A DNA stretch of 21,213 nt from a bacterium (GCA_029210545.1 JARGFV010000036.1:1-21213), one strand, 5' to 3'. Numbered from the stretch's first letter, positions 1 to 21,213 are shown. A program made the numbers and translations. The notes: a model not told the origin generated them from the letters alone.

Positions 1-85
1 GAAAGGGAAAACGACGCTTTTCCCTTTCCCCAGGACATTAATGAGCCAGGAAAAGTCCCGACTGGACTTTTTGCGACTCTATCAA
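1..85 (-). repeat. Inverted partial copy of the multi-hairpin repeat
   Basis: Positions 64-85 are the exact reverse complement of 3435-3456, and 1-29 are the reverse complement of the 3480-3508 hairpin (arms GAAAGGGAAAA and TTTTCCCTTTCC). Between them, 30-52 differ from the 3435 copy by a short insertion, but an AAAAGTCC/GGACTTTT hairpin persists. The copy is cut by the window edge and probably continues upstream. It overlaps the presumed nusA reading frame. Confidence 0.85.
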
Positions 86-817: not shown

Positions 818-3438
818 GCACGGTTCGGGTAGATGAGCTCGCCCAGGAATACGGGATAAATCCCGATGAGCTCTTCTCACAGCTCAAATCAATGGGCTTT
901 GATGTCGTCAATGTTACCAGCAGCGTGGACCGTTCACTGGTGGACATGGTCAGTGACATGCTGACCCATTCCCCACCCAGGGAACGGGAGGAATCCTCCA
1001 AGCGGAGGATCGTCTCTGTTCGAAAGGGTGAGGCGGAAGTCGAGGTCCGCATGGAGGCGGCTCCCGAAGAGGGAGAGCCTGAAGAGGTCCCGGAATCGGA
1101 CCTTCCTGAAGAGGAAGCCCAGCCTGCAGGTGAAGAAGTGGCGCCTGCCGAAGTAGAAACCGCAGCCGCCCAGGAGGAGCCTGCGGCCCAGGGCGAGGAA
1201 GCTCTGAAGCCGGTTGAGCTTTCCGAGGAGGAACTCGGGGAGCTAAAGCGCCAAAAACGGCAGATCCCCCTCACGACCCTCACTATCGAAAAGAATCTTT
1301 CCAATATCGGTACCGAGATCCCCACTCACAAGGTCATTCAGCAGGCCAAGCCGGTCAAATCGGTGGAAACCCCGGTCGAGGATGCCAGGGGGAAGGGCAA
1401 GAAAGGGAAAGCCGAAGACGAGGAAGATGTTTCCAGAAAGCCCGGGGCCAAAAAGGGCCGCAAGCCATCGCGCAAGGCGCTCATCGAGGATGTTGAGGAT
1501 GTGGACGCCCTCCTGGATGAGACGGCCGACGTGGACGAGCCCACCCTCAAAGTGGTGGAGATAAAACACACGGCCACTCCCCAGCCCGTTCGCCGGAAAG
1601 AACAGCCCATGAGGAGGAGGGGGAGGAAGCCGAAGAGGCGGGATCGGGGCGAGATGGAAGCCGAAATGCCCGTTGAAAGCGCCAAGTCGGTTCAAAAGAC
1701 CATCCGTATCACCCCGGGGCTCACCGTCAGCAGCCTGGCCGGGATCACCGGCACCAAGGCCTCCGAGATCATCAAGGTCCTGTTCCAGCTGGGGATCATG
1801 GCAACCATTAACCAGACCCTTGATCCTGATACGGCAGGCCTGGTGGCCAGCGAGCTCGGTTTCGAGGTCGAAGTCAAGGCTCACTCCATCGACGATCTGC
1901 TCAAGGAAGATCCGGATAGGAAGGAGAACCTTGTCCCGAGGCCTCCGGTGGTTACTGTCATGGGGCACGTCGATCACGGGAAGACCTCCCTGCTTGACGC
2001 TGTCAGGGAAACCGACGTGGTATCGGGCGAGGCCGGCGGGATCACCCAGCACATCGGAGCCCACCTCGTCCGCCACAAGAAGGGACAGCTTGTCTTCCTC
2101 GACACGCCCGGTCACGAGGCGTTTACCGCCATGCGATCCCGCGGCGCTCAGGTCACCGACATCGTGGTCCTGGTTGTCGCGGCCGATGATGGAGTGAAAC
2201 CCCAGACCATCGAGGCCATCGACCACGCCAAGGCCGCCAACGTGCCCATCCTCGTCGCTGTCAACAAGATGGACAAGCCCGAGGCGGATGCGGATCGGGT
2301 CATGAGAGAGCTTTCCGACCACGGTGTCGTGTCGGAAGAGTGGGGCGGCGACAGCCTGTTTTGCAAGGTGTCTGCCAAAAAGAGGGAGGGGATGGACGAT
2401 CTGATGGACCTCATCCTTCTCCAGGCAGAGATGCTGGAGCTTAAAGCCGATCCGAACCGGGAGGCAAGAGGGACAGTTATCGAATCGAAACTGGACAAGG
2501 GCAAGGGGCCCGTGGCTACCTTGCTGGTCCAGAAGGGAACGCTCAGGCCCGGTGACCTCATGGTAGCCGGAACGGTCATGGGCCGGGTTCGCGCCATGCT
2601 GGACGGCCGGGGCAAGAAAATTGTGGAGGCAGGGCCGTCGGTTCCCGTGGAAGTCCAGGGGCTCGGTGGTGTGCCCCGGGCCGGCGAACCGTTCGTCGTT
2701 TTCACGGACGAGCTCAAAGCCAAGCGGATCGCCCAGATGCGTGAAACCGTATTGGATGCTGCAAAGGCCAGCCACAAGAAGGTGACCCTCGAGGACCTTT
2801 TCACCCGGATCCAGGAGGGTGAGGTCAAGGACCTCAGCGTTGTCCTCAAGGCTGATGTCCAGGGTTCGGTTGGAGCTATTCGTGATTCCCTCATGAAACA
2901 GGCCACTGATGAGGTGAGGGTGAAGGTCATCCACGAGGGGACCGGGGGCATCAACGAAGGGGACGTCATGCTGGCTTCCGCCTCCAACGCCATCATCATC
3001 GGTTTTAACGTGCGTCCCGACAACAAGGCGTTGGAAGCGATCCGCAGGGAACAGGTGGACGTGAGGTTCTACAACGTCATCTACGATATTGTAAAGGATA
3101 TCAGGGACGCTCTCACGGGGCTCCTGGCTCCCGTATTCCTCGAGGAGGTCCTCGGCCGCGCCGAGATCCGCGAGACGTTCCACGTCCCCAAGGTCGGGAC
3201 CATTGCCGGGTGTTACGTCCTGGACGGCCTTATCAGGAGAAATGCCCAGGTCCGGGTGGTCCGCGACGGTGTCGTCGTCCAGGACGGGAAGATCGACTCC
3301 CTCAGGCGGTTCAAGGACGATGTGCGTGAGGTGGCTTCCGGCTACGAGTGCGGCATCGGTCTCGAGAACTTTAACGACGTCAAACCGGGCGATATCCTCG
3401 AAAACTACGTCATGATCGAACAGGAGGCCAAACTTTGA
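814..3438 (+). CDS. infB: Translation initiation factor IF-2
   Basis: An 874-residue GTPase that delivers initiator fMet-tRNA to the 30S subunit and promotes subunit joining. Domains in order: an IF2_N segment at residues 1-50 ([12 protein letters not shown]); a long charged linker to about 285, alternating Glu/Pro-rich and Lys/Arg-rich; a second IF2_N-like segment ([14 protein letters not shown]) at about 295-350; and the G domain with G1 GHVDHGKT at 384-391, G2 [10 protein letters not shown]3 DTPGHEAF, G4 NKMDKPEA and G5 SAKKREG. The beta-barrel and C-terminal fMet-tRNA binding domains follow (ending near [16 protein letters not shown]). The start ATG overlaps the ylxR stop; GGGAGG at 799-804 is its ribosome binding site. 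The stop TGA 3436-3438 lies inside the left terminus of the repeat at 3435. Full length and intact. Confidence 0.98.
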
Positions 3439-3628
3439 TAGAGTCGCAAAAAGTCCAATCCGGGACTTTTTGCTCAACGGAAAGGGAAAAGCGTCGTTTT
3501 CCCTTTCCTTACAAATCAATGACTTGCGGGACGGGTCATTGATTTGGGCACCCCGCGCGGGGTGCGTTGATGGACTTTTTGCGAGTCCATCAACTTTAGA
3601 ATCGCGCCTTTCATACGCGATTCTAAAG
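3435..3628 (+). repeat. Multi-hairpin intergenic repeat element (six consecutive stem-loops)
   Basis: Six perfect or near-perfect hairpins fill almost the whole infB-ylxP gap. HP1 is 3446-3456/3463-3473 (GCAAAAAGTCC). HP2 is 3479-3490/3497-3508 (GGAAAGGGAAAA). HP3 is 3513-3523/3535-3545 (AAATCAATGAC). HP4 is 3548-3556/3557-3565 (GCACCCCGC). HP5 is 3566-3576/3584-3594 (GTTGATGGACT). HP6 is 3594-3606/3616-3628 (CTTTAGAATCGCG). The stretch 3435-3593 also has 22-bp inverted ends (3435-3456 against 3572-3593, two mismatches). No T-run follows any stem, so an ordinary intrinsic terminator is not indicated. The left end contains the infB stop codon, and the right end stops two bases before the ylxP ribosome binding site. 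A divergent relative lies at 21002-21213. Confidence 0.9.
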
Positions 3629-3644
3629 TAGGAAGATCCTGCCT

Positions 3645-3926
3645 GTGGTCATCGGTGTCCTCCACTTCACCCTTTACCTGCCCGGGAACGGTTCCCTGAA
3701 GGGGAAAAGACGGGTTCTCCGGAGTCTGAAGGATCGTCTGCGATCCCAGTTCAACGTTTCGGTGGCTGAGGTCCAGTTCCAGGACCTCTGGCAAAAGGCG
3801 GGGATGGCCGTGGCCATCGTGTCCCCTGACAGGGATTACGCTGATGGAGCCCTGCAGAAGATACTTGACAGGATCGAGTCCTGGCATCTGGCCGAAGTGA
3901 TGGATGTGGAAGTGGAGATCATTTAG
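3645..3926 (+). CDS. ylxP: YlxP / DUF503 family protein
   Basis: A 93-residue protein opening VIGVLHFTLYLPGNGSLKGKRR, the typical DUF503/YlxP beginning (short hydrophobic strand, then the S-L-K-x-K-R motif). The family sits between infB and rbfA in many bacteria and has been linked to ribosome or RNA metabolism, but the biochemical role is not firmly known to me. The length fits the family. The start is GTG 3645, with AGGAAG at 3630-3635 as ribosome binding site nine bases upstream; that site sits directly after the last hairpin of the repeat. The gap to infB (206 bp) is unusually large for this operon and is entirely filled by the repeat. Confidence 0.88.
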   Translation: MVIGVLHFTLYLPGNGSLKGKRRVLRSLKDRLRSQFNVSVAEVQFQDLWQKAGMAVAIVSPDRDYADGALQKILDRIESWHLAEVMDVEVEII

Positions 3927-3927
3927 G

Positions 3928-3997
3928 AGATTTCAGTAGCCAGTAGCCAGATTTCAGACGTTTTTGACTTTATCTGACTGCTGACTACTGACTACTG
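3928..3997. repeat. Degenerate heptamer array A (ten 7-base units, two inverted arms)
   Basis: The whole ylxP-rbfA spacer reads in a 7-base register: AGATTTC, AGTAGCC (twice in a row), AGATTTC, then after two degenerate units TTATCTG, ACTGCTG and ACTACTG (twice). The left arm (CAGTAGC type) is the inverted counterpart of the right arm (GCTGACT/ACTACTG type), so the array can fold on itself. It ends six bases before the rbfA ATG and leaves no recognisable Shine-Dalgarno sequence there. Confidence 0.8.
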
Positions 3998-4003
3998 TTT
4001 ATT

Positions 4004-4366
4004 ATGAGCCGTTATTTTGACTACAAAAGAGCCGACCGCGTGAGCGAACTGCTCAAGCACGAGATATCGGAGATCCTCTTTCGTGAGACCAAGGATCCCG
4101 GTATCGGCGAGGTGACGATCACCCGGGTCGAGGTGACCGATGACCTCAAACTTGCCACGGTCTATTTCGGGGTGCTGGACCGGACCGCCGAGGCCGAGCA
4201 GGTGACGGAAGGACTGCAGCGGGCGGGCGGTCACATTCAGCGGCTGCTTGGAAAAAGGCTCCGGCTCAGGTTCATCCCCAAGCTGACCTTCCAGTTCGAC
4301 AGGAATCTGGATTACAGCATGAAGATCGCGAAAATTCTCCAGGTGATCGATGAAGAGGGCAGCTAA
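4004..4366 (+). CDS. rbfA: Ribosome-binding factor A
   Basis: A 120-residue single-domain KH-type protein that binds the 30S subunit and assists 16S rRNA 5'-end maturation, important at low temperature. Family features: N-terminal RADRVSELLKHEISEILF, the central VTITRVEVTDDLKLATVYF strands, and C-terminal RFIPKLTFQFDRNLDYSMKI. The length is normal. The start ATG 4004 gives the expected N-terminus, but the preceding bases (CTGTTTATT) hold no purine-rich ribosome binding site; they come from heptamer array A. The 3' end overlaps truB by 17 bases, the usual rbfA-truB coupling. Confidence 0.96.
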   Translation: MSRYFDYKRADRVSELLKHEISEILFRETKDPGIGEVTITRVEVTDDLKLATVYFGVLDRTAEAEQVTEGLQRAGGHIQRLLGKRLRLRFIPKLTFQFDRNLDYSMKIAKILQVIDEEGS

Positions 4367-5315
4367 GCTGGGTTTCAGACGGAAAAAGACAGATAACCGG
4401 ATTTCGGTGCACCAGGGGATCCTGGTGGTCGACAAACCGGTCGGACTGACCTCCCACGACGTGGTGCAGAAGGTGAGGAAGGTGTTCGGGACCCGGCAGG
4501 TGGGACACGCCGGCACTCTCGATCCCATCGCTTCGGGAGTTCTCGTGCTCCTGGTGGGATCAGCTACCCGGATCGCGCAGTACCTCCAGGAGGATGACAA
4601 GGAGTACCACCTGACCCTCCGGCTCGGGATGGAAACCGACACCCAGGACATTACGGGGCAGATCCTGTCAGGAGCGGATCCCTCCGGTGTCGGTCGTGAA
4701 GAACTGGAAAAGGCCCTGGCCGCTTACAGGGGGCAGTTCAAGCAGGTCCCGCCTTCCTTTTCGGCGGTCAAGCGCGCAGGGCAGCCCCTGTACCGGTTGG
4801 CCCGCAAAGGGGTCCGCATTGAGGTCGAGCCGCGGGAGGTTCAGATCCGCCGGCTGGATCTCACCGGCTGGGATCCGCCGGTAGCTTCCCTTCAGGTCGT
4901 ATGTTCCAAGGGTACCTACATGAGGACCCTTTGCCACGACATCGGCCGGGATCTCGGTGTGGGGGGGTGCATGGAATCGCTGGTCCGGTTCAGCAGCGGC
5001 GCTTTCCCTCTGGAGGAGGCCGTTTCTCTCGATCAGGTCACCTCCGACCCGGAACCGGCCAGGTGGCTGAGGGCCGCTGCCGGAGGCCTCCGTTTTCCGT
5101 CGGTTGAGCTTGCTGACGAAGCGCTGATACAGCTGGCGGGAGGCAAGGACGTCCCGTGCCCGAACGGCATCCGGAAGGGGCTCGTTTCCATAACGAGAAA
5201 GGGCCGGCTCATAGCAGTAGCCACGGTACGCAGCAGGGACGGTGAACAGTACCTGGGACCCATCAGGGTCCTCGAGCCGAACCTCAAAGAACTTTTAAAA
5301 CAAACTGATAAATGA
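4350..5315 (+). CDS. truB: tRNA pseudouridine-55 synthase TruB
   Basis: A 321-residue enzyme that converts U55 in the T-loop of tRNAs to pseudouridine. Catalytic motif GHAGTLDPIASGVL with Asp58 as nucleophile; upstream VVDKPVGLTSHDVV (motif I) and downstream KEYHLTLRLGMETDTQD are typical. Mid-protein VPPSFSAVKRAGQPLYRLAR and KGTYMRTLCHDIG also match the family. The C-terminal ~60 residues (VELADEALIQLAGGKDV to GPIRVLEP) look like a PUA domain. ATG 4350 lies inside the rbfA 3' end, with AGGTGA at 4341-4346 as the likely binding site. A later in-frame GTG, just before HQGILVVDKP, is a less likely alternative. Operon position between rbfA and rpsO is canonical. Confidence 0.96.
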   Translation: MKRAAKLGFRRKKTDNRISVHQGILVVDKPVGLTSHDVVQKVRKVFGTRQVGHAGTLDPIASGVLVLLVGSATRIAQYLQEDDKEYHLTLRLGMETDTQDITGQILSGADPSGVGREELEKALAAYRGQFKQVPPSFSAVKRAGQPLYRLARKGVRIEVEPREVQIRRLDLTGWDPPVASLQVVCSKGTYMRTLCHDIGRDLGVGGCMESLVRFSSGAFPLEEAVSLDQVTSDPEPARWLRAAAGGLRFPSVELADEALIQLAGGKDVPCPNGIRKGLVSITRKGRLIAVATVRSRDGEQYLGPIRVLEPNLKELLKQTDK

Positions 5316-5353
5316 TAATATATTAAACTTAATTTTCGGAAGGAGGATTTAAT

Positions 5354-5623
5354 ATGCCGCTCAACAGCGAATCGAAGCGGGAGATCATCGGTGATAACCG
5401 GCAGCACCAAACTGATACCGGTTCGTCCGAGGTACAGGTTGCTCTTTTAAGCAAGCGGATCGAGGAACTTACCGAGCATTTCAAGGTCCACAAGAAGGAT
5501 CACCACTCCCGGGTGGGGCTCCTCAAGCTTGTCGGCCGCCGCAGGCGTCTGCTCAACTATCTCAGGTCCCGGGATATCGAGAGGTATCGCGAGATCGTCA
5601 AGAAGCTCGGCCTGCGCAGATAA
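5354..5623 (+). CDS. rpsO: 30S ribosomal protein S15
   Basis: An 89-residue protein with the complete S15 pattern: [46 protein letters not shown] and a basic C-terminus [13 protein letters not shown]15 is a primary binder of the central domain of 16S rRNA. Its ribosome binding site is strong (GGAAGGAGG, 5338-5346), in an AT-rich leader (5316-5353) between truB and rpsO. In E. coli S15 represses its own translation through a leader fold, but no equivalent fold could be confirmed here. It precedes pnp, as in many bacteria. Confidence 0.98.
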
Positions 5624-5657
5624 TCTCTGCCTGTCCCCATACTCAAGGAGTGCCCTA

Positions 5658-7772
5658 ATGAAAAGTCAGGTTCAGCTGGAATGGGGCGGGAGAACCATCA
5701 CCCTCGAGACCGGTGCCGTGGCCCGGCAGGCGAGCGGCTCAGTTTGGGCCCGATACGCCGACACCGTGGTCCTTGCGACCGTGGTGGCCATGCCCGAACC
5801 CAGGGAAGGTGTTGATTTTCTCCCCCTCACTGTCAATTATCAGGAGAAGACCTATGCCGCCGGCAAGATCCCCGGCGGCTTTTTTAAGCGTGAGGGTCGT
5901 CCCACAGAAAAGGACACCCTCGCCAGCCGTCTCATCGACCGGTCCATAAGACCCCTGTTCCCGCAAGGGTTCAGCCACGAGACCCAGGTTATCATCAACA
6001 TCCTCTCGGTGGACAAGGAGAACGATGCCGACATCGTCTCCCTGGTCGCCTCTTCAGCGGCGCTCATGGTTTCCGATGTTCCCTTTGACCGGACCGTGGG
6101 CGCTGTCCGCGTGGGTCTGGTAGACGGTGAATACATCCTAAACCCGACATTCACCCAGCTTGAAAACAGCACCATGGACCTGATCGTCGCGGGGACAAGG
6201 GAGGCTGTCATGATGGTGGAGGGCGAGGCGAAGGAGATCTCCGAAGATGAGATGCTCGGCGCTCTCGAATTCGCGCATACCCACATCATCGAGATCATCG
6301 ACCTCCAGAACCAGCTCCGCTCTGCCGCCGGTAAGGAGAAGTGGAATTTCGCCGCGGCTGCCGTGGACGAATCCCTCGTCCGCACGGTCCAGGACGCCTG
6401 CCGTGACAAGATAGCCGAGGCGCTCCGGATCGCCGACAAGAAGGAACGGAAATCCCAGATCAAGGGGATCCGCGAGAAGGTCATGGAGCCCTACGCAGCC
6501 GCCGAGAATGGTGGAGCCGCAGCCGGTGAGGTCGCGGATATCCTGAGGTCCCTGGAAAAGGATCTCATGCGCTCCATGGTCCTCGAGGAGAACAGGAGGA
6601 TCGACGGGCGCAGCCCCGATCAGGTTCGCCCCATCACATGTGAAGTCGGAGTCCTTCCCAGAGCCCACGGGAGCGCCCTGTTCACCAGGGGTGAGACGCA
6701 GGCTCTGGCTGTTACCACCCTCGGGACGAAGGATGACGAACAGATCATGGACTCCCTCGAGAAGGATTACCGGCGCAAGTTCATGCTCCACTACAACTTC
6801 CCGCCTTTCTCAACGGGTGAAGCCAAGTTCCTGAGGGGCCCGGCACGCCGGGAGATCGGCCACGGCAACCTCGCCCAGAGGAGCCTGATGTCTACCCTGC
6901 CGGGCAGGGAGGATTTCCCGTACACCATCCGTATCGTGTCGGAGGTCCTCGAGTCCAACGGGTCCTCTTCCATGGCTACGGTGTGCGGCGGCAGCCTGTC
7001 CCTCATGGACGCGGGCGTCCCCGTAAAAAAAGCTGTAGCCGGGATCGCCATGGGGCTGATCTACACCCCGGCAAAATCGGTCGTCCTTTCCGATATCCTC
7101 GGCGCTGAAGATCACCTGGGCGACATGGATTTCAAGGTGGCCGGTACACGGGACGGTATCACCGCTTTCCAGATGGACCTCAAGGTGGCCGGTATCAGCC
7201 GTGAACTCATGGCACGCGCACTGAATCAGGCCAGGGACGGACGGGAACACATCCTGGGAGAGATGGACAAGGCACTCAAGACCCACCGCGAGTCCATTTC
7301 ACCCCATGCGCCCCGCATCATCACCATTCACGTCAAACCTGACAAAATCCGCGAGATCATCGGCCCCGGGGGCAAGGTGATCCGCTCTATCGTCGAGCAG
7401 ACCGGAGTCAAGATCGAGGTCGAGGACAACGGGACCGTTCTCATCGCCTCGGTGGACGAGGAAGCAGCCCAGCGGGCCATCGCCATGATCCAGGCCATCG
7501 TCGAGGAGCCCGAGATCGGCAGGATCTACAGGGGCACCGTGAAGAAAGTCCTCGACTTCGGCGCTTTCGTCGAGATCGTGTCCGGAACGGACGGACTGGT
7601 TCATATCTCCCAGCTTGCCGAACACCGCGTCGCCAAGGTCGAGGACGTGGTAAAGGAAGGGGACGTGGTCAACGTCAAGGTCCTTGACATCGACCGTGAC
7701 GGCAAGATCCGTCTGAGCATGAAGGAGGCGGAAAGGGAACTGGGAACCGGCGGCAAACCGGATCCCAGGTGA
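5658..7772 (+). CDS. pnp: Polynucleotide phosphorylase
   Basis: A 704-residue 3'-to-5' exoribonuclease that uses phosphate and takes part in mRNA decay. Two RNase PH domains (about 1-140 and 310-540) flank a helical linker; the second contains the active-site segment RDGITAFQMDLK at about residues 498-509. A KH domain follows at about 555-615 (IREIIGPGGKVIRSIVEQTG), then an S1 domain at about 618-690 (GTVKKVLDFGAFVEIV, GLVHISQLAE). The start is ATG 5658, seven bases after AGGAG 5646-5650. The frame is open further upstream to 5529, but that part overlaps rpsO and lacks family similarity. Full length, no lesion. Confidence 0.98.
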   Translation: MKSQVQLEWGGRTITLETGAVARQASGSVWARYADTVVLATVVAMPEPREGVDFLPLTVNYQEKTYAAGKIPGGFFKREGRPTEKDTLASRLIDRSIRPLFPQGFSHETQVIINILSVDKENDADIVSLVASSAALMVSDVPFDRTVGAVRVGLVDGEYILNPTFTQLENSTMDLIVAGTREAVMMVEGEAKEISEDEMLGALEFAHTHIIEIIDLQNQLRSAAGKEKWNFAAAAVDESLVRTVQDACRDKIAEALRIADKKERKSQIKGIREKVMEPYAAAENGGAAAGEVADILRSLEKDLMRSMVLEENRRIDGRSPDQVRPITCEVGVLPRAHGSALFTRGETQALAVTTLGTKDDEQIMDSLEKDYRRKFMLHYNFPPFSTGEAKFLRGPARREIGHGNLAQRSLMSTLPGREDFPYTIRIVSEVLESNGSSSMATVCGGSLSLMDAGVPVKKAVAGIAMGLIYTPAKSVVLSDILGAEDHLGDMDFKVAGTRDGITAFQMDLKVAGISRELMARALNQARDGREHILGEMDKALKTHRESISPHAPRIITIHVKPDKIREIIGPGGKVIRSIVEQTGVKIEVEDNGTVLIASVDEEAAQRAIAMIQAIVEEPEIGRIYRGTVKKVLDFGAFVEIVSGTDGLVHISQLAEHRVAKVEDVVKEGDVVNVKVLDIDRDGKIRLSMKEAERELGTGGKPDPR

Positions 7773-7788
7773 CCACCTCCTCCCGTCG

Positions 7789-9060
7789 ATGAGTGCCAGA
7801 TCAGGCGCCGGCGTTGTCAGGGAAAACCTTCCCAACGGGCTCACTGTCCTCGTCGAGCCCCTGAAGGAGTTTTCCTCTGTCAGCGTAGGTGTCTGGGTCC
7901 TCATCGGTTCCAGAGACGAGACCGAGATCCAGTCCGGCATCAGCCATTTCATCGAACACCTTGTATTCAAGGGGACTTCCCGCAGGACCGCAAAGCAGAT
8001 CGCCCTGGAGATCGATTCCCTGGGCGGTTCTCTCAACGCGTTCACGAGCAAGGAGTTCACCTGTTTTTACGCCAGGGTGCTGGGTGAAAGCCTGACGCAG
8101 GCCCTGGACGTCCTGTCGGACATCACCCTCAATTCCCTGTTCGCCGGCGACGACCTCGTTAAGGAAAAGGACGTGATCCTCCAGGAGATATCCATGGTGG
8201 AGGATACGCCCGATGACCTCGTGCACGACCTCCACTGCCGCGAGTTCTGGGCCGGCCAGGGCATCGGGTGGCCCGTCCTGGGTACCCGGGACTCCCTGCT
8301 GGCCATTGGAAGTGGAAACGTACTGGATTTTCACCGATCCCATTACCGTCCCGAACAGATGCTCATCACCGCCTCGGGGGCGGTGGATTCAAACGATCTG
8401 ATCGATCGGATCGGGAGCATCTTCGGAGAACTCGAGCCCGGTACCTCCCCGGTACTCCGATCGGCCCCCCGGCCCACGCCGGGTATCTGTGTTCTCGAAA
8501 AGCCGGTGGAGCAGATCCATTTCTGCGTGGGCTACAACGGGCTGCCCGCTACCCATGAAAAGCGTTATGCCATGTACCTGCTCAACACCCTGCTGGGCGG
8601 TGGGATGAGTTCGAGGCTGTTCCAGAAGATACGCGAAGAACAAGGCCTGGCCTATTCCGTGTACAGCTACCACTCCACTTACCAGGATGCCGGGCTGCAC
8701 ACCATCTACTGCGGTACTTCCCGGGAGGGGTTCTCCAAAGCTCTGGAGATCATCCGCGAAGAGACGGAAAACCTCGCGGCTGAAAGGCCGCCCGAAGAAG
8801 AACTGACCATAGCCAGGCAGCAGCTCAAGGGAAACCTTCTCCTGGGACTTGAAAGCACCGGTAACCGCATGAATCAACTCGCCAAGAACGAGATCTATTT
8901 CGGCCGGCAGGTCTCCCCGGAGGAGATCGCCGAGGGGATCGACAGCGTGACCTCCGAGCAGGTCCGCCAGTTGGCATCCGAGCTGTTCGTCGAAGAGTCC
9001 ACGGCCCTTACGGTCATCGGCCCGGTGAGTGAGGAAGAGGTCCGTGACCTCATGGGATAA
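7789..9060 (+). CDS. M16 family zinc metallopeptidase (processing peptidase-like)
   Basis: A 423-residue protein of the pitrilysin/M16B family. The inverted zinc motif HxxEH is present as HFIEH (His53, Glu56, His57), with the third ligand in VILQEISMVEDTPDD (Glu133). The C-terminal half (from about IHFCVGYNGLPATHEKRYAM) is the inactive M16 partner domain, including GGGMSSRLFQKIREEQGLAYSVYSY, matching MPP-beta/YmxG-like proteins. Such a gene commonly follows pnp. The natural substrate is unknown; a role in peptide turnover is inferred. There is no evident signal peptide. ATG 7789 is 16 bases after the pnp stop; the ribosome binding site there is weak (AGGTGA overlaps the pnp stop), so the start is moderately certain. 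It overlaps the start of dut. Confidence 0.92.
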   Translation: MSARSGAGVVRENLPNGLTVLVEPLKEFSSVSVGVWVLIGSRDETEIQSGISHFIEHLVFKGTSRRTAKQIALEIDSLGGSLNAFTSKEFTCFYARVLGESLTQALDVLSDITLNSLFAGDDLVKEKDVILQEISMVEDTPDDLVHDLHCREFWAGQGIGWPVLGTRDSLLAIGSGNVLDFHRSHYRPEQMLITASGAVDSNDLIDRIGSIFGELEPGTSPVLRSAPRPTPGICVLEKPVEQIHFCVGYNGLPATHEKRYAMYLLNTLLGGGMSSRLFQKIREEQGLAYSVYSYHSTYQDAGLHTIYCGTSREGFSKALEIIREETENLAAERPPEEELTIARQQLKGNLLLGLESTGNRMNQLAKNEIYFGRQVSPEEIAEGIDSVTSEQVRQLASELFVEESTALTVIGPVSEEEVRDLMG

Positions 9061-9517
9061 CAGCCGGAAAGGTCCCGAAATCCTCATCAAGGTCCTTCCT
9101 CACGGGCGGGGCCTCGATCTCCCGGCATACGCCACCGAAATGGCCGTGGGTATGGATCTTGCGGCCGCGGTCGATCAGGACATGCTCCTGGAACCGGGTC
9201 AGAGGGGTCTCGTTCCAGCCGGTTTCGAGATGGCGGTGCCTCCCGGGTACGAAGCCCAGGTGCGTCCCAGAAGCGGGTTGGCGGTCAACAACGGCATTAT
9301 CGTTCCCAACGCGCCCGGGACCATCGATCCCGATTACAGGGGGGAAGTGAAGGTCATTCTTCTCAACATGGGAACGGAACCGTTCATCATCCGGCGCGGA
9401 ATGAGGGTGGCCCAGATGGTGATCGTGCCGGCGGTGCACGCCGATGTCCGCACCGTCGATCAGCTTCCCCCGACCGGCCGGGGAGACGGCGGGTTCGGGA
9501 GTACAGGGACGTCCTAG
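9044..9517 (+). CDS. dut: dUTP diphosphatase (dUTPase)
   Basis: A trimeric-type dUTPase that hydrolyses dUTP to dUMP and diphosphate, keeping uracil out of DNA and supplying dTMP synthesis. All five family motifs are present in order: AVGMDLAAA, PRSGLAVNNGI, GTIDPDYRGEVKVILLN, RVAQMVIVP and GRGDGGFGSTG. The start is uncertain: GTG 9044 with GAGGAAG at 9031-9037 was chosen; GTG 9029 in the same frame is possible. Both lie inside the end of the M16 gene, implying coupling. The stop TAG 9515-9517 is part of the CTAG bounding the MITE-like element that follows. Confidence 0.95.
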   Translation: MTSWDNSRKGPEILIKVLPHGRGLDLPAYATEMAVGMDLAAAVDQDMLLEPGQRGLVPAGFEMAVPPGYEAQVRPRSGLAVNNGIIVPNAPGTIDPDYRGEVKVILLNMGTEPFIIRRGMRVAQMVIVPAVHADVRTVDQLPPTGRGDGGFGSTGTS

Positions 9518-9616
9518 CCCGCATTATTCATGATGCAAATGAGATGTCCGCTAACTGTGTGGCAATTAAAGATAAATGGGAATGGCACTATAAGCATCAT
9601 GAATTATGCGGGCTAG
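9514..9616. mobile_element. MITE-like element with 23-bp inverted ends, bounded by CTAG
   Basis: Left arm 9514-9536 and right arm 9594-9616 are inverted copies with one mismatch (CTAGCCCGCATT... and ...ATGCGGGCTAG). The 57-base interior is AT-rich and holds no gene. Excluding CTAG at each end, a 95-bp unit with 19-bp inverted termini starting CCCGCATT remains, and CTAG could be a 4-bp target duplication. The right CTAG is at the same time the first bases of the REP-like repeat that follows. Without a transposase, the mobilising family cannot be named; 4-bp duplications occur in IS1380-type and CTAR-targeting IS5-type elements, among others. Confidence 0.6.
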
Positions 9617-9849
9617 GAGTCTGTCGGAGAACCTGCCTGTCTGGTTAGACAGGCAGAGCACAGACTCCTGGATAGAGTTTGTCGGAAGATGTGATCTTGG
9701 TCCAGTATTTTATATAATACATTGTGTTAACAGTGACTTACCATCTTCACCGACTACTTTATCATCGGTTGATATGAAGAAAAAATATTATAAGCGTTTT
9801 TCCGACAAACTTTTACGCAGCGTGTCACGGTTTTCCGACACGCTGCTAG
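9613..9849. repeat. REPIN-like doublet: two inverted REP-like hairpins around an AT-rich core
   Basis: The left unit begins CTAG, then GGAGTCTGT (9616-9624) pairs with 9660-9668; its loop carries TCGGAGAACC and a nested hairpin (9633-9641/9648-9656). A second GTTTGTCGGAA follows at 9677-9687. The right unit is the same in reverse: TTCCGACAAAC at 9800-9810, hairpin GCAGCGTGTC (9817-9826) with 9837-9846, loop ACGGTTTTCC, ending CTAG at 9846-9849. Loop and flank sequences are conserved but the stems differ, both remaining paired. The ~112-base core (9688-9799) is strongly AT-rich compared with the genes around it and encodes nothing recognisable. A third copy lies at 12501. Confidence 0.72.
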
Positions 9850-9850
9850 G

Positions 9851-9948
9851 GCGCAAAGCACAGTCCGTCCCGGAGCGAAGCGCAAAGTGCGATGTCCGAA
9901 GAGAAAGTCTTCCTTCGCGCTTCGATCTTCGATCTTCGCGCTCGCGAA
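9851..9948. repeat. Heptamer array G (7-base register, inverted arms)
   Basis: Follows the REPIN-like doublet directly. The clearest part is TTCGCGC, TTCGATC (twice), TTCGCGC at 9914-9941. The left part (AGCGCAA, AGTGCGA, TGTCCGA at 9879-9899) is in the same 7-base register, roughly inverted relative to the right part: CGAAGCGC at 9876-9883 pairs with GCGCTTCG at 9917-9924. Together with the MITE-like element and the doublet it fills the 461-bp dut to 9979 gap. Confidence 0.6.
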
Positions 9949-9978
9949 TAAACTTACTGATAAAGGAGATCTGTAAAG

Positions 9979-12503: not shown

Positions 12504-12550
12504 GAGTCTGTCGGAAAACCTCACGCAGACTCCTAGCTGGAGTTCGTCGG
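12501..12550. repeat. Third copy of the REP-like hairpin repeat
   Basis: TAGGAGTCTG (12501-12510) pairs perfectly with 12526-12535; the loop 12511-12525 begins TCGGAAAACC. A second GTCGGA follows at 12546. Loop and flank match both halves of the 9613-9849 doublet, and the stem equals the left half of that doublet. The purB stop codon is the outermost part of the stem. No T-run follows, so terminator activity is only a possibility. Confidence 0.75.
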
Positions 12551-12558
12551 ATGAACCG

Positions 12559-12621
12559 AAAATTGAAAATTGAGGGTTGAGGATCGGAACCTGGAACACG
12601 GAACACGGAACCTGAGCTCAG
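12559..12621. repeat. Heptamer array C (nine 7-base units) upstream of purL
   Basis: Nine consecutive 7-base units, all ending in G: AAAATTG (twice), AGGGTTG, AGGATCG, GAACCTG, GAACACG (twice), GAACCTG, AGCTCAG. It follows the REP-like hairpin at 12501 and stops 14 bases before the purL ribosome binding site. The unit sequence drifts along the array while the period stays at seven. Confidence 0.82.
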
Positions 12622-12647
12622 CGAGGTAATTGACTGGAGGAGCGAGC

Positions 12648-15626: not shown

Positions 15627-15642
15627 ACGGCCGGCGGCCGCC

Positions 15643-15720
15643 AACGAGACACGGCGACACGAGGACACGGAGACACGGGGAAAGTACTTTTCGCCGCGTC
15701 GCCCCCTCCCCGCGTCTGAA
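15643..15720. repeat. Octamer array D with inverted arms and palindromic centre
   Basis: The left arm reads in 8-base steps: ACGGCGAC, ACGAGGAC, ACGGAGAC, ACGGGGAA (15651-15682). The centre GAAAGTACTTTTC (15680-15692) is near-palindromic. The right arm (CGCCGCGTCGCC to CGCGTCTGAA) is the imperfect reverse complement of the left, with CGCGTCT opposite AGACACG. Fills most of the purL-purQ spacer. Confidence 0.7.
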
Positions 15721-15735
15721 TTAATGGAGTGCGTA

Positions 15736-16554
15736 ATGAGCACAAAACCAAAGGCCATCGTCATCACCGGCAACGGGACCAACTGCGAGCGGGAGGCCGC
15801 CGAGGCGTGCCGACTGGGAGGTTTCGAAGCCGATATCGTCCACATCTCCCGGATCCTTTCCGGACAGGTGACCCTGGACGGTTATCATTTCCTCAACCTC
15901 ACCGGCGGTTTCCTGGACGGGGATGACCTCGGGTCGGCCAAGGTACAGGCCAACCGGATGAAGTATTCCGCGGTGGAGGGGGGGACGGAAAAGGTAGCCG
16001 ACCAGATCGAACGGTTTATCGAGGCGGGGAAACCGATCCTCGGTGTCTGCAACGGTTTCCAGCTTATGGTCAAGATGGGGCTGCTCCCGGGTTTGTCCGC
16101 TCGATGGGAACAGGAAGCTTCCCTGACCTTCAACGATTCGGGGCGGTTCGAGGACCGATGGGTGACGCTCCTGGTGGATGACAGCTCCCCCTGCATTTTC
16201 ACCAGGGGACTTCAGGCGGTTCCCCTGCCTGTCCGTCACGGTGAGGGCAAGTTCGTCGTGGCCGACGAGACCGTCCTGGACCGGATGAGGGATAAGGCGC
16301 TCCTGGCGGTGCGATACATGGATCCGAAGACCGGCAAGAGGACCATGGAGTACCCCCTCAACCCCAACGGTTCCGTGGAGGCGATTGCGGGAGTCTGTTC
16401 CCCGTCCGGCCTTCTTTTCGGGCTCATGCCGCACCCAGAGGCTTACCTCCACCGGGTCAACCACCCGCGGTGGACCCGTGAAGAGCTTCCCGATGAGGGG
16501 GGCGGGGTTGCCTTTTTCCGGAACGCGTACGAATATGTGAATCAGGCGCTGTGA
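15736..16554 (+). CDS. purQ: FGAM synthase glutaminase subunit PurQ
   Basis: A 272-residue class I glutamine amidotransferase that hydrolyses glutamine and passes ammonia to PurL. The nucleophile Cys105 lies in ILGVCNGFQLM; His233 and Glu235 of the triad lie in GLMPHPEAYLHR. The N-terminus KAIVITGNGTNCERE is typical. It is longer than the ~227-residue Bacillus PurQ, resembling the glutaminase domain of large PurL enzymes, which fits a partner PurL carrying fused PurS-like domains. ATG 15736 follows GGAG (15726-15729) by six bases; the in-frame ATG at 15724 overlaps that site and was rejected. The 3' end, including the stop, lies within a 15-bp hairpin. Confidence 0.95.
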   Translation: MSTKPKAIVITGNGTNCEREAAEACRLGGFEADIVHISRILSGQVTLDGYHFLNLTGGFLDGDDLGSAKVQANRMKYSAVEGGTEKVADQIERFIEAGKPILGVCNGFQLMVKMGLLPGLSARWEQEASLTFNDSGRFEDRWVTLLVDDSSPCIFTRGLQAVPLPVRHGEGKFVVADETVLDRMRDKALLAVRYMDPKTGKRTMEYPLNPNGSVEAIAGVCSPSGLLFGLMPHPEAYLHRVNHPRWTREELPDEGGGVAFFRNAYEYVNQAL

Positions 16555-16571
16555 TGGCCTGATTCACATAT
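16533..16571. terminator. Perfect 15-bp inverted repeat spanning the purQ stop
   Basis: Arm ATATGTGAATCAGGC (16533-16547) pairs perfectly with 16557-16571, with a nine-base loop containing the TGA stop. There is no T-run, so it is either a non-canonical 3' end or an mRNA-stabilising hairpin. Half of the stem is coding sequence. Confidence 0.45.
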
Positions 16572-16898
16572 CAGCTATAAGCTGTAACGCAGAGTTACGC
16601 AGAGGCGGCCCGCTGGTAGGCCGCATGACCCGCAGGGTTACGCAGTCAGATCATGAACTAATACCAGTTCCATGTTTCAGTTTTAACTGCGGCCCTCTGC
16701 GACAGCGCCTGGAAGGTGGCGCTATCGGCGGCCATCTGCGTTATTGCTTTTGTGTAGCGAAACTGGAACCTGAGCGAAGCGAGCACGCAAAATCCAAAAC
16801 TCAAAACACAGCTCAACGAGCGACGACCTTTTTGAGATTTGAGATGTGAGATCTGAGATCAAATTCTTTTTCACTTGGGGTGTTTTTGCGAGGTGCTG
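16572..16898. other. Non-coding gap upstream of purF (repeats only)
   Basis: No gene is supported. The left half (16585-16743) is an imperfect inverted-repeat element: TAACGCAGAG and ACGCAGAGGCGGCC on the left face GCGGCCCTCTGCG (16689-16701) and a copy ending ATCTGCGTTA at 16743, with an AGCGCC/GGCGCT hairpin inside the right arm. The right half is heptamer array E (16788-16861). No promoter was identified with confidence. Confidence 0.5.
16788..16861. repeat. Heptamer array E (two arms) upstream of purF
   Basis: Left arm CAAAATC, CAAAACT, CAAAACA (16788-16808) and right arm GAGATTT, GAGATGT, GAGATCT, GAGATCA (16834-16861), each in exact 7-base steps. They are separated by about 25 bases, and the left arm reads roughly as the reverse complement of a TTTGAG-type unit like those on the right. 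The array ends about 38 bases before the purF start. Confidence 0.72.
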
Positions 16899-18329
16899 AT
16901 GGAGCCCTTTGATAAATTTCGCGAAGAGTGCGGTGTGTTCGGCATTTACGGGAATTCTGAAGCCGCCAACCTGACCTACCTGGGGCTGCACGCCCTTCAG
17001 CACCGCGGCCAGGAGAGCGCCGGCATTGCCACCACCGATGGAACGAGGATCTACCGTCACGGGCAGATAGGGCTCGTCAACGACATCTTCACACCCCAGG
17101 TCCTGGAAAACCTCCCCGGCAACATGGCTATCGGCCATAACCGCTACTCCACCACCGGTGACAGCCTCGCGGAGAATATCCAGCCCATCGCAGTGACTTA
17201 CGCACGGGGCAGCCTTGCCATCGCCCATAACGGGAACCTTGTCAACGCGCATGAGGTCAAACAGGATCTTGAGGAGGCCGGCGCAATTTTCCAGTCGTCC
17301 TCCGATACGGAGGTCATCATCCACCTCATGGCAAGGTCCAGGGGCGGGCATATCCTGGACCGTCTCGTGGAAGCTCTCAACCAGCTGAGGGGGGCCTATT
17401 CCCTCCTTATCCTGACGGAGACGAAAGTCATCGCCGTAAGGGATCCGAGGGGGTTCAGGCCCCTTTCCATGGGGCGCCTGGGTGACGCCACGATCTTCAC
17501 GTCGGAAACATGCGGGCTTGACCTTATCGAGGCCGACTTCGTGCGGGATATAAGCCCCGGTGAGATCGTCATGGTTGACAGGGACGGGGTCAACTCCTAT
17601 TTCCCGTTCCCGAAGATGAAAGGGTCTCCCTGCATCTTCGAATTCATCTATTTCGCGAGGCCCGACAGCATCATCGACGGGATCAGCGTGTACATGGCGC
17701 GCAAGAATCTGGGGCTTCAACTGGCCAGGGAGGCTCCGGTGAACGCCGATGTAGTGGTGGCGGTGCCCGATTCGGGGGTTCCGGCCGCCGTCGGGTTCTC
17801 CGAGGGGATGGGGATACCAAGTGAGTGGGGGCTCATCCGCAACCATTATATCGGCCGCACCTTCATCGAACCAAGCCAGTCAATCAGGCACTTCGGCGTA
17901 AAACTCAAGCTGAACCCCTGTCGTGCGGCGATCAAGGGCAAGCGCGTGGTCCTCATCGATGACTCCATCGTCAGGGGGACCACGAGCCGCAAGATCGTCA
18001 AGATGGTCCGTGACGCGGGGGCCACCGAGGTACACCTGAGGATCAGTTCTCCCCCCACCATGAACCCCTGTTACTACGGCATCGATACCCCCACCCACCA
18101 GGAACTCATCGCCTCGAGCCATTCCGTGGAAGAGATCAGGAAATACATCACAGCCGACTCACTGGGCTACCTGAGCCTGGAGGGGCTTCGCAAGGCGATC
18201 CGTCCCGACATCCCGGCTGACAGCGCCGGTTTCTGCGAAGCGTGTTTTTCCGGGGATTATCCGGTGGCTTTCCCCCGCTCCCATGACGCCCAGATGTCCC
18301 TCTGGGCGCCCAGGATCACCCATGTCTGA
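16899..18329 (+). CDS. purF: Amidophosphoribosyltransferase (glutamine PRPP amidotransferase), Fe-S type
   Basis: A 476-residue enzyme of the first committed step of purine synthesis: PRPP plus glutamine gives phosphoribosylamine. The class II glutaminase nucleophile is Cys11 in [11 protein letters not shown], so the first ten residues form a propeptide like that of B. subtilis PurF. The PRPP loop is [17 protein letters not shown]. Four cysteines at 245 (GSPCIF), 391 (MNPCYYG), 446 and 449 (FCEACF) match the 4Fe-4S ligands of the Bacillus-type enzyme, implying oxygen-sensitive regulation. ATG 16899 was preferred over TTG 16875 because it has a GAGGTG site just upstream (16890-16895) and gives the right propeptide length. 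The end overlaps the next gene by eight bases. Confidence 0.97.
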
Positions 18330-18762
18330 GATGGCGGCCTTCATGGCCCTCATCGAAACCGCGTCTACCGAGGGGATTCTCACCCGCCGGCGTTACCTCA
18401 GGGAGCACGGCCCCCAGGAAATGGGGTGGAGTTACGACAATATCCTCTGGGTCGAGAAAAGACTGATGCGGCAGATCGACAGGAAAGGGTTCTTCCGCAT
18501 CTACCTGTATACGGGTAACGGTGACGGCGAGGTCCGCTACCGTATGAAAGTGACGGGGCTCAGGACGTATCGTCAACCGGAGGTGTTCTCGGACCCGGTC
18601 GATGGACGGCGCTATCTGGTCCACTCCAGGATGTCCATCGATTCCATCGAGGAGCTGGACAATGTGCGGACACTCTCCGATTTTGCGAGTGTAGACATGA
18701 GGAAACCGGACGTGAGGCATCTGCAGCTCGGTTTCCTGTTCGTTGTCGATCCGGAGGTCTGA
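18322..18762 (+). CDS. Uncharacterised 146-residue protein
   Basis: I do not recognise a family. The protein is soluble, with no signal peptide or membrane segment. The N-terminal ~50 residues look helical ([20 protein letters not shown], a winged-helix-like length). The C-terminal ~90 look beta-rich ([33 protein letters not shown]), faintly reminiscent of PUA/EVE-type folds; this is a guess. The start ATG 18322 overlaps the purF stop by eight bases, suggesting coupling; ATG 18331 is an alternative and ATG 18283 would overlap purF further. The downstream gene starts immediately after the stop, so the three genes probably share a transcript. Confidence 0.7.
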
Positions 18763-20430
18763 TTGGATCCCGTGAAACTGCTGGTGCTCATGACGGGCGC
18801 CTTTTTCCTGGCATTCGGGGTGGCCGCTTACAGGCACTTTTACTCCGTCCTGGGCGGCGCCGCCGGCCTGGCGGTGTGGGCCGGCCTGCACCACCGGGTC
18901 GTCAGCCTGCCCGGCCTTCGGGATCATCCGGGTACCGCCAACCTCCTGCTCATGATCCTGCTGTTTTTTTCCGGGATGCTCCTTGCCAGAAAGTTCCGCA
19001 AGGTCCTGGCTTTCGTCGGCGGTTTTGGAACAGGAGTCATGCTGTCTTTGGCCGTGGGATCTTTCCTTGGTGCTGGCGGCCCGCCGCCGGTTTTTCTGTC
19101 ACCTGAAACGGTCGGCTCGATGGATCTCCTGGCCGGGATGGTCGGCGGCGTCGCTTTCCTGTTCTTCGAGAAGTTCTTCGCGATCCTGCTTACGTCGGCT
19201 GTGGGCGGTTCCCTTTGCTACTGGGCCATCGGGGGAAGGTGGACCTTCCCTGTCTGCGTTTCCCTGGGGCTCGCCGCACAGCCGCTCATTTCCATGCGTT
19301 TCAGCCCGAAAGGCTCCGGAGATGGGGAGGAAAGGACCAGAAGCGGTCCAACCGCCGTCCTTCTGCTCCTTGTGGCCCTGTCTTTCCCCTCCGCTGCCGC
19401 GGCCGAGTGGGTGGTCGATCGCGTCAACAGCCTGAACTCACGGGTGGTCATCGCCGCGGGATGGAGGGATGGTGTCAACCTGGGTGAACAGTACGCCGTT
19501 CTCGGGGAGGGGGGCAGGCTCATCGCGGTCATCACAATCTCCGACGTGTTCTCCGATTCCTCCTACACGGATCCGATCCCCGCGGACAGGCTTACCCTGG
19601 TCAGATCAGGTATGCTGATCAGGACCATGGAGGAGTTCGATTACGATCAGGCCATGAAACTGGGGGGAGAGCCCCACATGGAGGAGTTTTTAACCAAGTA
19701 TCCGGCAAGCCGCTTCCGGAAAGAGGTGTTTGACGCCCTTGACGAGGTACGGTTCCGGCGCGTGGAGATGATCGGCAGCATCGACGCTTTCAGGGAGTTC
19801 CAGCGTCAGTATCCCACCAGCCGTTTCGGGCCCGAGGCCCGCCGTAAGGAAGAACTGTTGACCCTCGAACAGGCCAGGGAAGGGGGCACCGAAGAGGCGT
19901 TTCTCCAATTTCTCCAGCGGTTCCCCGGTTCATCGCTCCTTTCAGGGATGGCCGAAGTGAGAGGTTACCTGAGAGCCCGGGAGATGGCCAGGATCTACGC
20001 TTACGAGGATTTTCTCGCTGCCTACCCCAGGAGCAGGCTGGCCGACGAGTTCATACCCCTGATCGACGAGTTTGAACTCTGGGCCGAAAAGCTTGAGTTC
20101 GGCAAGGATCCGGTGGAGGCCATCAGGCATTTTGGACTGCTTGGCGACGAGACGGCGGTGCCTCTCCTTGTGGGCAAGTTGACCGTCCCCTCCCTCGAAG
20201 CGGAGGCCCGTAAAGCCATATTTCTCATCGGGGAGCCCGCCCTGGGCACCCTCATGGAGGTTCTCATCTCACCTCTGCAGTCCCTGGAGCTCAAGGATCG
20301 GGCAGTCCTGATCATCGGGGAACTGGGTGACTTGTCAGTTATCCCGGCCGTAAGGAGTTACGTGGACAAGGAGGGCACGGCGGCCGGCCGTAAGGCCCTT
20401 TTGAAGCTGGAACAGAAGGCCGGCAGGTGA
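18763..20430 (+). CDS. Membrane protein with periplasmic-type repeats and HEAT repeats
   Basis: A 555-residue multi-domain protein of unknown function. Residues 4-177 hold about six hydrophobic segments. Residues 193-214 look like a signal peptide or a further membrane span (TAVLLLLVALSFPSAAAA, then EW). Residues 216-285 resemble a small beta-barrel like the C-terminal domain of FlgT-type proteins (VVIAAGWRDGVNLGEQYAVL). Residues 305-430 contain four copies of an F-L-x-x-Y-P-x-S-R-F-like motif (at about 309, 346, 383 and 417), as in TPR/YbgF-like proteins. Residues 448-550 are HEAT/PBS-lyase-like repeats (GDETAVPLLVGKL, GELGDLSVIPAVRSYV). The TTG start abuts the previous stop and has GGAGG (18753-18757) five bases upstream; GTG 18772 is an alternative. 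Confidence 0.8.
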   Translation: MDPVKLLVLMTGAFFLAFGVAAYRHFYSVLGGAAGLAVWAGLHHRVVSLPGLRDHPGTANLLLMILLFFSGMLLARKFRKVLAFVGGFGTGVMLSLAVGSFLGAGGPPPVFLSPETVGSMDLLAGMVGGVAFLFFEKFFAILLTSAVGGSLCYWAIGGRWTFPVCVSLGLAAQPLISMRFSPKGSGDGEERTRSGPTAVLLLLVALSFPSAAAAEWVVDRVNSLNSRVVIAAGWRDGVNLGEQYAVLGEGGRLIAVITISDVFSDSSYTDPIPADRLTLVRSGMLIRTMEEFDYDQAMKLGGEPHMEEFLTKYPASRFRKEVFDALDEVRFRRVEMIGSIDAFREFQRQYPTSRFGPEARRKEELLTLEQAREGGTEEAFLQFLQRFPGSSLLSGMAEVRGYLRAREMARIYAYEDFLAAYPRSRLADEFIPLIDEFELWAEKLEFGKDPVEAIRHFGLLGDETAVPLLVGKLTVPSLEAEARKAIFLIGEPALGTLMEVLISPLQSLELKDRAVLIIGELGDLSVIPAVRSYVDKEGTAAGRKALLKLEQKAGR

Positions 20431-20437
20431 TATATTT

Positions 20438-20468
20438 GTCTCATCAGGTCTCGGCGACCTGATGAGAC
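20438..20468. terminator. 13-bp perfect hairpin after the HEAT-repeat gene
   Basis: GTCTCATCAGGTC (20438-20450) pairs with 20456-20468 around a five-base loop, eight bases after the stop. No T-run follows; heptamer array F begins within its right foot. Possible 3'-end structure. Confidence 0.45.
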
Positions 20469-20578
20469 CAAGTACCAAGTACCAAGTCCTGAGTACCAAG
20501 TGCAAAGTACCAGGCACTGAGATCTAAGAACTGATTTTGCTTTACCTGGCACGTAGCACATAGTTCTCAGCACAACAC
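20467..20578. repeat. Heptamer array F (about fifteen 7-base units, two arms)
   Basis: The left arm runs 20467-20536 in exact 7-base steps: ACCAAGT three times, then CCTGAGT, ACCAAGT, GCAAAGT, ACCAGGC, ACTGAGA and others. After seven bases a right arm (20544-20578) follows: ACCTGGC, ACGTAGC, ACATAGT, TCTCAGC, ACAACAC. Read on the opposite strand, the right arm gives GTGCCAG/GTGCTGA-type units similar to the left arm (GTACCAA), so the arms are inverted relative to each other. It is the longest array in the window. Confidence 0.8.
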
Positions 20579-20601
20579 GAGTTTCATGACAGGAAACCCT
20601 T

Positions 20602-20994
20602 ATGTCCAGAAGAAAACGGGAAATAAAGAAGAGAAAGAAGACCCAGGAGCAGCTTCTGCAGCCCGGCGGGTCGGTTTTTGAAAAGGAAGACACTGTTGCT
20701 GAGCCGGCTGGACAGGTCATTGCGTCTTTCCATGACGCTCCCGGTGAGCCGGAATTCGACGACAGCACTGCGGTGGCTCCCTCATCACCGCCCCTTGCGG
20801 AAAAGGTCGGTGGGAAGGCCCGGCGTGAAGAACCACCGCCTGCCAAAAGGGTTCCGCAGAGCAGCTGGCTCGGCAGGAACAAGGAGAACCTCCTCCTGGG
20901 GATGCTGGTCCTTTACGTCTTTTTGCTCGGGCTGGGTACAGTGGGGGAACTGTTCGAGATCGAGTGGATCCTGAACCTGCCCCTCTTCAGATAG
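20602..20994 (+). CDS. Small single-span membrane protein of unknown function
   Basis: A 130-residue protein with no recognised family. The first 14 residues are almost all basic (SRRKREIKKRKKTQ). Residues 20-90 are low complexity, rich in Pro, Glu, Ala and Ser, probably disordered. One membrane span lies at about 96-114 (NLLLGMLVLYVFLLGLGTV), followed by a short tail ending ILNLPLFR. The positive-inside rule puts the basic N-terminus in the cytoplasm. ATG 20602 has AGGAAA at 20591-20596. Codon use resembles that of the neighbours. It stands alone between array F and the tandem repeat at the window end. Confidence 0.72.
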   Translation: MSRRKREIKKRKKTQEQLLQPGGSVFEKEDTVAEPAGQVIASFHDAPGEPEFDDSTAVAPSSPPLAEKVGGKARREEPPPAKRVPQSSWLGRNKENLLLGMLVLYVFLLGLGTVGELFEIEWILNLPLFR

Positions 20995-21001
20995 GGGCTA
21001 T

Positions 21002-21213
21002 TGGAAGGGTCGCGAACGGTCCTGGCGGGACCTTTCGCTCAACGGAAACCGAAAAGCGTGGTTTTCGGTTTCCTTACGGATCGCTGACATGCTTTCCGGT
21101 CATCGATCCGGGCGCCCTTCCCAGGCGCGGCTGCTGTGGAAGGGTCGCGAACGGTCCTGGCGGGACCTTTCGCTCAACGGAAACCGAAAAGCGTGGTTTT
21201 CGGTTTCCTTACG
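21002..21213 (+). repeat. Tandem 135-bp repeat, divergent relative of the 3435 element
   Basis: Positions 21002-21078 recur identically at 21137-21213 (77 of 77 bases), a period of 135; the second copy is cut by the window end. Each copy contains HP1 (first copy 21012-21022/21028-21038, one mismatch) and HP2 (GGAAACCGAAAA, 21044-21055, pairing with 21062-21073). The first copy also contains HP3 (21078-21088/21099-21109, one mismatch) and HP4 (GCGCC/GGCGC, 21112-21116/21124-21128). Linkers GCTCAACGG, AAAAGCGT and TTTCCTTAC are shared with 3435-3545, while stem bases differ in paired fashion. No gene is seen after 20994. Confidence 0.9.

Follow-up and report, generated by a model that had tools for sequence, protein, structure and literature searches.

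When a repeated sequence folds into a chain of hairpins, and the two sides of its stems change together from one copy to the next, is it an RNA of the host that is being preserved or the DNA itself? Functional RNA is usually proven by compensatory base changes, and the stretch of bacterial DNA analysed here (21,213 bp, called the window throughout) carries repeats that show them clearly. Comparing the two main copies by hand, we arrive at the same count that a sequence-only reading had given, seven paired changes against two breaks: in HP2, GGAAAGGG.../...CCCTTTCC becomes GGAAACCG.../...CGGTTTCC, with two pairs altered on both sides; in HP3 three A-T pairs become G-C and one pair breaks; in HP1 two A-T pairs become G-C, again with one break.

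We find that the repeats form a new family of MITEs, which grow by nesting and have an unusual interior of five covarying hairpins. The whole explanation that we favor, to which we give a probability of roughly 0.78, is a non-autonomous DNA transposon (MITE) that is served by a transposase in trans, inserts at AANNTT and has its hairpins kept up at the level of the DNA.

Copies in the window and across the phylum

The features of the repeats in the window are as follows.

3431-3436, no strand: left target-site duplication AACTTT
3437-3591, plus strand: copy 1, full-length hairpin-chain MITE, 155 bp
3437-3456, plus strand: left terminal inverted repeat of copy 1, GATAGAGTCGCAAAAAGTCC
3446-3473, plus strand: HP1 of copy 1, overlapping the left terminal repeat
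3479-3508, plus strand: HP2 of copy 1, GGAAAGGGAAAA-GCGTCG-TTTTCCCTTTCC; covarying alignment columns 49-67 and 56-60
3512-3546, plus strand: HP3 of copy 1; covarying columns 79-112, 80-111, 85-107 and 87-105; longer copies have further units between its two arms
3548-3565, plus strand: HP4 of copy 1; covarying columns 117-132
3569-3591, plus strand: HP5 of copy 1, palindrome GATGGACTTTTTGCGAGTCCATC at the right end, serving also as right terminal inverted repeat
3592-3597, no strand: right target-site duplication AACTTT
21003-21137, plus strand: copy 2, diverged, first 135-bp unit, HP1-HP4 without HP5
21138-21213, plus strand: copy 2, second tandem unit, extending beyond the window into a run of N
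1-83, minus strand: copy 3, partial, at the contig start, with HP2, HP1 and the left end

Copy 1 ends in terminal inverted repeats (GATAGRGTCGCAAAAAGTCC...GGACTTTTTGCGAGTCCATC) with the 6-bp duplication AACTTT on either side. The element earlier placed at 3446-3545 is a real repeat, but those limits are too short and leave out the fifth hairpin. A separate hairpin at about 3593-3629 lies outside the copy, the duplicated target bases excepted. On the other side, the infB gene (ORF 814-3438) ends directly at copy 1, its TGA stop taking one base from the left duplication and two from the start of the element. In copy 2 the HP1-HP4 unit recurs every 135 bp and then meets an N gap just past the end of the window. 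Two copies had been recognised in the window beforehand, but the minus-strand partial copy at its start was overlooked; the AAGGTT at 84-89 is the target flanking that copy.

The window's genome holds about 190-250 HP2 cores overall. A 30-bp HP2 core with up to 3 mismatches finds 188 matches in the 2.72-Mb genome (0 for the reversed-pattern control), a pattern that allows degenerate bases in the stem and includes a 3' linker finds 221, and symmetric degenerate patterns find 254, a slight overcount, since a near-palindrome may be matched on each strand. Nearly every genome examined of one little-known bacterial phylum has the family: it is present in 11 of 12, with 2 to roughly 250 matches in each, and G003 is the one among the 12 with no match to the element patterns. 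Taken together, the 12 genomes contain roughly 1,000 copies. The order-, class- and phylum-level genome sets are these same 12 genomes, and the figures for spread cover that phylum. We saw no copy at the purF loci of other named genomes (L048-L127, the regions around purF), nor in the plasmids, phages and viral contigs searched, the last of these searches using one exact pattern only.

The elements have length modes of 133-155 bp and no coding capacity, and 123 of 126 copies are not deep within an ORF, so that about 98% lie outside long ORFs. Relative to neighbouring genes, 28 copies have the same and 35 the opposite orientation, which is no bias. Convergent gene pairs hold no excess of copies (12/101), and for lack of enrichment between convergent genes we rejected a convergent or terminator role. 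Copies also sit at many contig ends, so they probably break these genome assemblies.

In most elements (151 of 168) a single 5' unit (HP1-HP2) is joined to a single 3' unit (the 3' arm of HP3 with HP4). In 16 of the 17 longer elements all 5' units precede all 3' units (for example 3+3 in L274, 2+2 in L007 and L185), with the junctions within HP3; the additional HP1-HP2 units lie on the left of a central HP3 and the additional HP3/HP4 units on its right. Copy 2 in the window and a single composite, however, are tandem. We read the longer copies most readily as the outcome of nested insertion, or of expansion, within the HP3 loop, rather than of tandem duplication.

Ends, targets and a candidate mobiliser

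We follow mobility in 147 full-length copies drawn from ten genomes. Of these, 62 are flanked by an exact 6-bp duplication, as compared to a mean of 4.6 and a maximum of 12 when the right flanks are shuffled; duplications of other lengths number 0 at 5 bp and 5 at 7 bp. The insertion target is AANNTT, often inside TCAANNTTGA, and terminal inverted repeats lie at fixed ends across copies, as they do in a MITE. Two species of one genus provide one clean empty site: G002 reads ATTATT-element-ATTGTT where G001 has a single ATGGTT, with collinear flanks. At a second compared site G001 keeps a 23-bp hairpin remnant, and remnants of this type may account for the solitary HP5-like hairpins found at other places. 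That the repeats are a mobile, non-autonomous element is in our view almost certain. The sequence-only reading had suggested a structured RNA, a protein-binding array or a trans-mobilised element; the last of these is supported by the inverted repeats, the 6-bp duplications, the empty site and the transposase gene described below, while the RNA is left without support.

Which class of enzyme could move such an element? REP/REPIN repeats, moved by a Y1 (RAYT) transposase, are likewise high-copy intergenic palindromes, and Y1 proteins occur in 8 of the 12 genomes. Against this, 6-bp duplications are not expected from Y1 single-strand transposition, and copy number does not follow the presence of Y1: in G003 there are two Y1 matches and zero elements, whereas G005, G007 and G011, with 96, 41 and 20 element matches, have no Y1 match. 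We therefore reject the RAYT link and regard this origin as extremely unlikely. Insertion of the IS1272 type, in which a stem-loop is replaced, was also rejected, because duplications are present and stem-loops are not enriched at the targets. There are two striking cases of a stem-loop target (this window and L002), and host stem-loops at targets show no enrichment over shifted nearby intergenic controls.

The absence of an associated transposase, as first described, is true of the window but wrong at the scale of the genome. We scanned pairs of terminal inverted repeats 0.7-4.5 kb apart for autonomous elements; mostly these are two unrelated copies flanking host genes, and within one such stretch an IS1182-like gene turned up. 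It is a 520-aa ORF on contig C1 of the window's genome, G000 (L128:15775-17337, minus strand), outside the window, with a DUF772 + DDE_Tnp_1 architecture. Its closest profile is NF033551 (IS1182), at 116 bits, and because this falls under the NCBIfam equivalog cut-off of 270 we call the transposase only IS1182-like. The gene is bounded over 1665 bp by AATATT followed by GACGGCATCGCAAAAAGT... on one side and ...CTAATTGCGGGTCCATC followed by AAGGTT on the other, close versions of the element ends; the resemblance is close and not perfect, and the flanks AATATT and AAGGTT are not a matching duplication. Homologous DNA in G001 (GACGGACTCGCAAAAAGT) and G011 (GATGGCTTCGCAAAAAGT) starts at the same left end, and so this end belongs to the IS itself and not to a neighbouring MITE. 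Other DUF772 transposases of the bacterial family were rejected as mobilisers, since their surroundings are without element ends.

In four of the 12 genomes we detect the transposase, as a single open frame along with fragments. That frame, in G000, is without the catalytic-glutamate region, the segment in which the copy of G011 bears its YR...E motif; the latter copy has a frameshift, and that of G001 is truncated. Every transposase copy thus looks broken, and no intact mobiliser was seen among the 12 genomes; in the copy-rich G005, G008 and G010 no relative was detected. For genomes of this kind the transposase must have been lost, lie in unassembled parts or have been replaced in its role by another enzyme. 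We consider it likely that an IS1182-like transposase moves, or once moved, the family.

In the mechanism that we propose, a transposase supplied in trans, putatively of the IS1182-like type, would recognise ends of about 20 bp, GATRGRGTCGCAAAAAGTCC on one side and the palindromic HP5 on the other. Insertion at AANNTT with a 6-bp staggered cut would then produce the 6-bp duplications.

How the stems are maintained

Now we consider the covariation. We aligned the 147 copies, built a FastTree phylogeny and counted changes by parsimony; as a control, one arm of each stem was slid by 1-3 columns. We find 46 joint changes from Watson-Crick to Watson-Crick on both sides, as compared to 0-5 in the slid controls, so the stems are maintained, and the earlier expectation of paired changes beyond chance holds across many copies and a tree. 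About ten pairs are altered on both sides in many of the 147 copies; among them are CG/TA at columns 11-36 and 56-60, GC/CG/TA at 49-67, and AT/GC at 79-112, 80-111 and 117-132.

This is the kind of evidence that could speak for a structured RNA (a riboregulator, RNA stabiliser or attenuator) of which each copy is selected for a host function: covariation is strong in four hairpins, the linkers CGGAAA and TCCTYAC are conserved, and the copies keep outside long ORFs. The details point elsewhere. G.U pairs are no commoner than A.C, the one-sided stem changes comprising 53 from Watson-Crick to G.U and 79 from Watson-Crick to A.C, and an Rfam scan matched no family above its gathering score. The lack of an orientation bias or of an excess between convergent genes, together with the target duplications and the empty site, also tells against a host RNA. 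Private mutations in stems are almost as frequent as in loops, with 0.92 private variants per 100 sites in the stems of HP3/HP4 and 1.27 in their loops, though the events are few and, taken by itself, G000 shows fewer private changes in stems than in loops. We regard a host RNA as very unlikely, and the step from covariation to a folded RNA, taken in the sequence-only reading, does not stand.

For variants shared between copies the picture in HP3/HP4 differs, with 0.26 per column in stems and 1.07 in loops (Fisher P = 0.001). Copies were gathered by HP2 and end patterns, which biases the stem conservation of HP1, HP2 and HP5 upwards; HP3/HP4 were not used for gathering. Resident copies seem to decay nearly freely, and multiplying lineages seem to retain their stems. 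Because G.U is not preferred, orientation is unbiased and private mutations in stems come close to those in loops, it is as DNA that the hairpins seem to be maintained, in lineages that continue transposing, and not as host RNA. Paired mutations have long preserved the hairpins, apparently since the structure helps the DNA to jump or to survive jumping, rather than serving the host.

What could maintain a hairpin at the level of DNA? Stem upkeep may come from selection for mobilisation or from arm-to-arm correction during replication. For the latter, template switching between hairpin arms would copy one arm onto the other and keep the palindromes perfect, a mutational origin which fits the adjacent HP2 pairs that changed together (GG to CC with CC to GG), the many mismatches that return to Watson-Crick on the tree (28 from A.C, 13 from G.U) and the absence of a strand asymmetry favouring G.U. 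Set against this, resident copies show one-sided stem changes near the loop rate, so such correction would act mainly during transposition. We see template switching as a possible cause, if not the one we would bet on, and it is a rival only to selection as the explanation of the covariation, not to the mobile-element reading.

In the explanation that we favor, the five hairpins would be maintained as a cruciform, as single-strand hairpins or as palindromic protein sites, in the lineages that keep moving, and would either aid mobilisation or be restored in its course. We advance only tentatively the stronger form of this idea, in which transposition makes use of the hairpins as DNA structures, a transposase or replication-coupled step acts on the folds so that well-paired stems multiply, and HP3 accepts further units to give Russian-doll elements. 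If true, the covariation in these repeats records selection on single-stranded or cruciform DNA and not on RNA.

Transposition could also have spread a set of palindromes that a host DNA-binding or nucleoid protein later adopted as its sites. In favor of this reading are the DNA-level symmetry, the many copies and the five conserved palindromes, in which short related words recur (GACTTTTTGC, AATGAC/GTCATT). However, G003 and G004 live with 0-2 copies, and the words in HP2 and HP3 change freely with compensation, so that no fixed binding word is kept; we judge co-option of this kind unlikely, and single palindromes may still be bound by a protein. With the mobile-element reading, this is a case where a strongly compensated family is mobile DNA by every test made and shows no RNA-type tolerance of G.U. 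It should caution those who search for RNAs by covariation, and it offers a natural system in which to ask if DNA hairpins undergo selection during transposition.

Comparison with known systems

The Geobacter multicopy intergenic sequences comprise many palindromic intergenic repeat families, for most of which RNAs and regulatory sites, not MITEs, were proposed (PMC2700814); they are likened to the present family by description alone. The REP/REPIN-RAYT systems (PMC2817692, PMC3116915) share with it the high-copy intergenic palindromes. Unlike them, the present element is much longer, bears a DDE-type duplication signature and does not track with RAYT genes in these genomes.

Members of the IS1182 family are reported to use palindromic targets, and IS1272, which belongs to this family, to replace stem-loops without making duplications (PMC5678879). 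The likeness here lies in a transposase that has closely similar ends and is nearest to NF033551 IS1182; the differences are its score of 116 against the cut-off of 270 bits, the 6-bp duplications and host stem-loops that are not enriched at targets.

Prokaryotic MITEs such as ERIC, the Correia elements and RUP are short and non-coding; they have terminal inverted repeats and target duplications, occur in hundreds of intergenic copies and share their ends with a transposase-bearing element. The present family is like them in being small and non-coding, with inverted repeats, duplications and a high intergenic copy number. It differs in its 6-bp AANNTT target, in being known so far from one phylum (to which all 12 genomes examined belong), and in its interior, which consists of five separate hairpins with covarying stems and grows by nesting from within.

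Insertion sites and a genome without copies

Past infB, at 3592-3629 of the window, stands a separate perfect hairpin (CTTTAGAATCGCG...CGCGATTCTAAAG), with copy 1 of the hairpin-chain MITE (the mobile repeat of five hairpins, HP1-HP5) at its foot. The same arrangement is found in stretch L002 but, despite these two cases, we find no overall enrichment of separate hairpins at MITE insertion sites. The complete 2.8-Mb genome G003 holds zero copies of the MITE, where relatives have up to ~250, and yet it encodes two Y1 (RAYT-type) transposases.

A second repeat and its composites

Besides the MITE, the window carries a second dispersed hairpin repeat of ~105 bp (CTAGCCCGCATTATTCATGATGC...GCATCATGAATTATGCGGGCTAG) at 9514-9618, directly 3' of the dut ORF. 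Its 23-bp arm recurs at about ten further sites in this genome and also in G008, another genome of the phylum, and the repeat is apparently an independent miniature element. Five copies contain an inserted MITE at almost identical position (AAAGAT or AAAGTT), as if the composite had been copied as one unit; the majority of these five lie close to contig ends.

Composites of the ~105-bp repeat and the MITE (stretch:position)
L131:19465
L134:13475
L138:19873, minus strand
L168:2125, minus strand
L186:19377

Subfamilies and possibly related elements

Members of a 173-175-bp MITE subfamily have an additional hairpin (about GTCCCGCA...TGCGGGAC) within the HP3 loop. Because this subfamily is common to different genera (this genome and G002), MITE subfamilies either predate the genera or moved between them. 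Further elements start with TTGACAGGGTCGYAAAAAGTC and finish with an HP5-like end, as the MITE does, around different interiors; these are possibly sister families that share its transposase.

Members of the 173-175-bp subfamily
L010:984
L024
L169:10948
L158:3556
L164:7542

Elements with the same ends and different interiors
L142:19113-19220 region
L137:4540-4705 region
L138:2446
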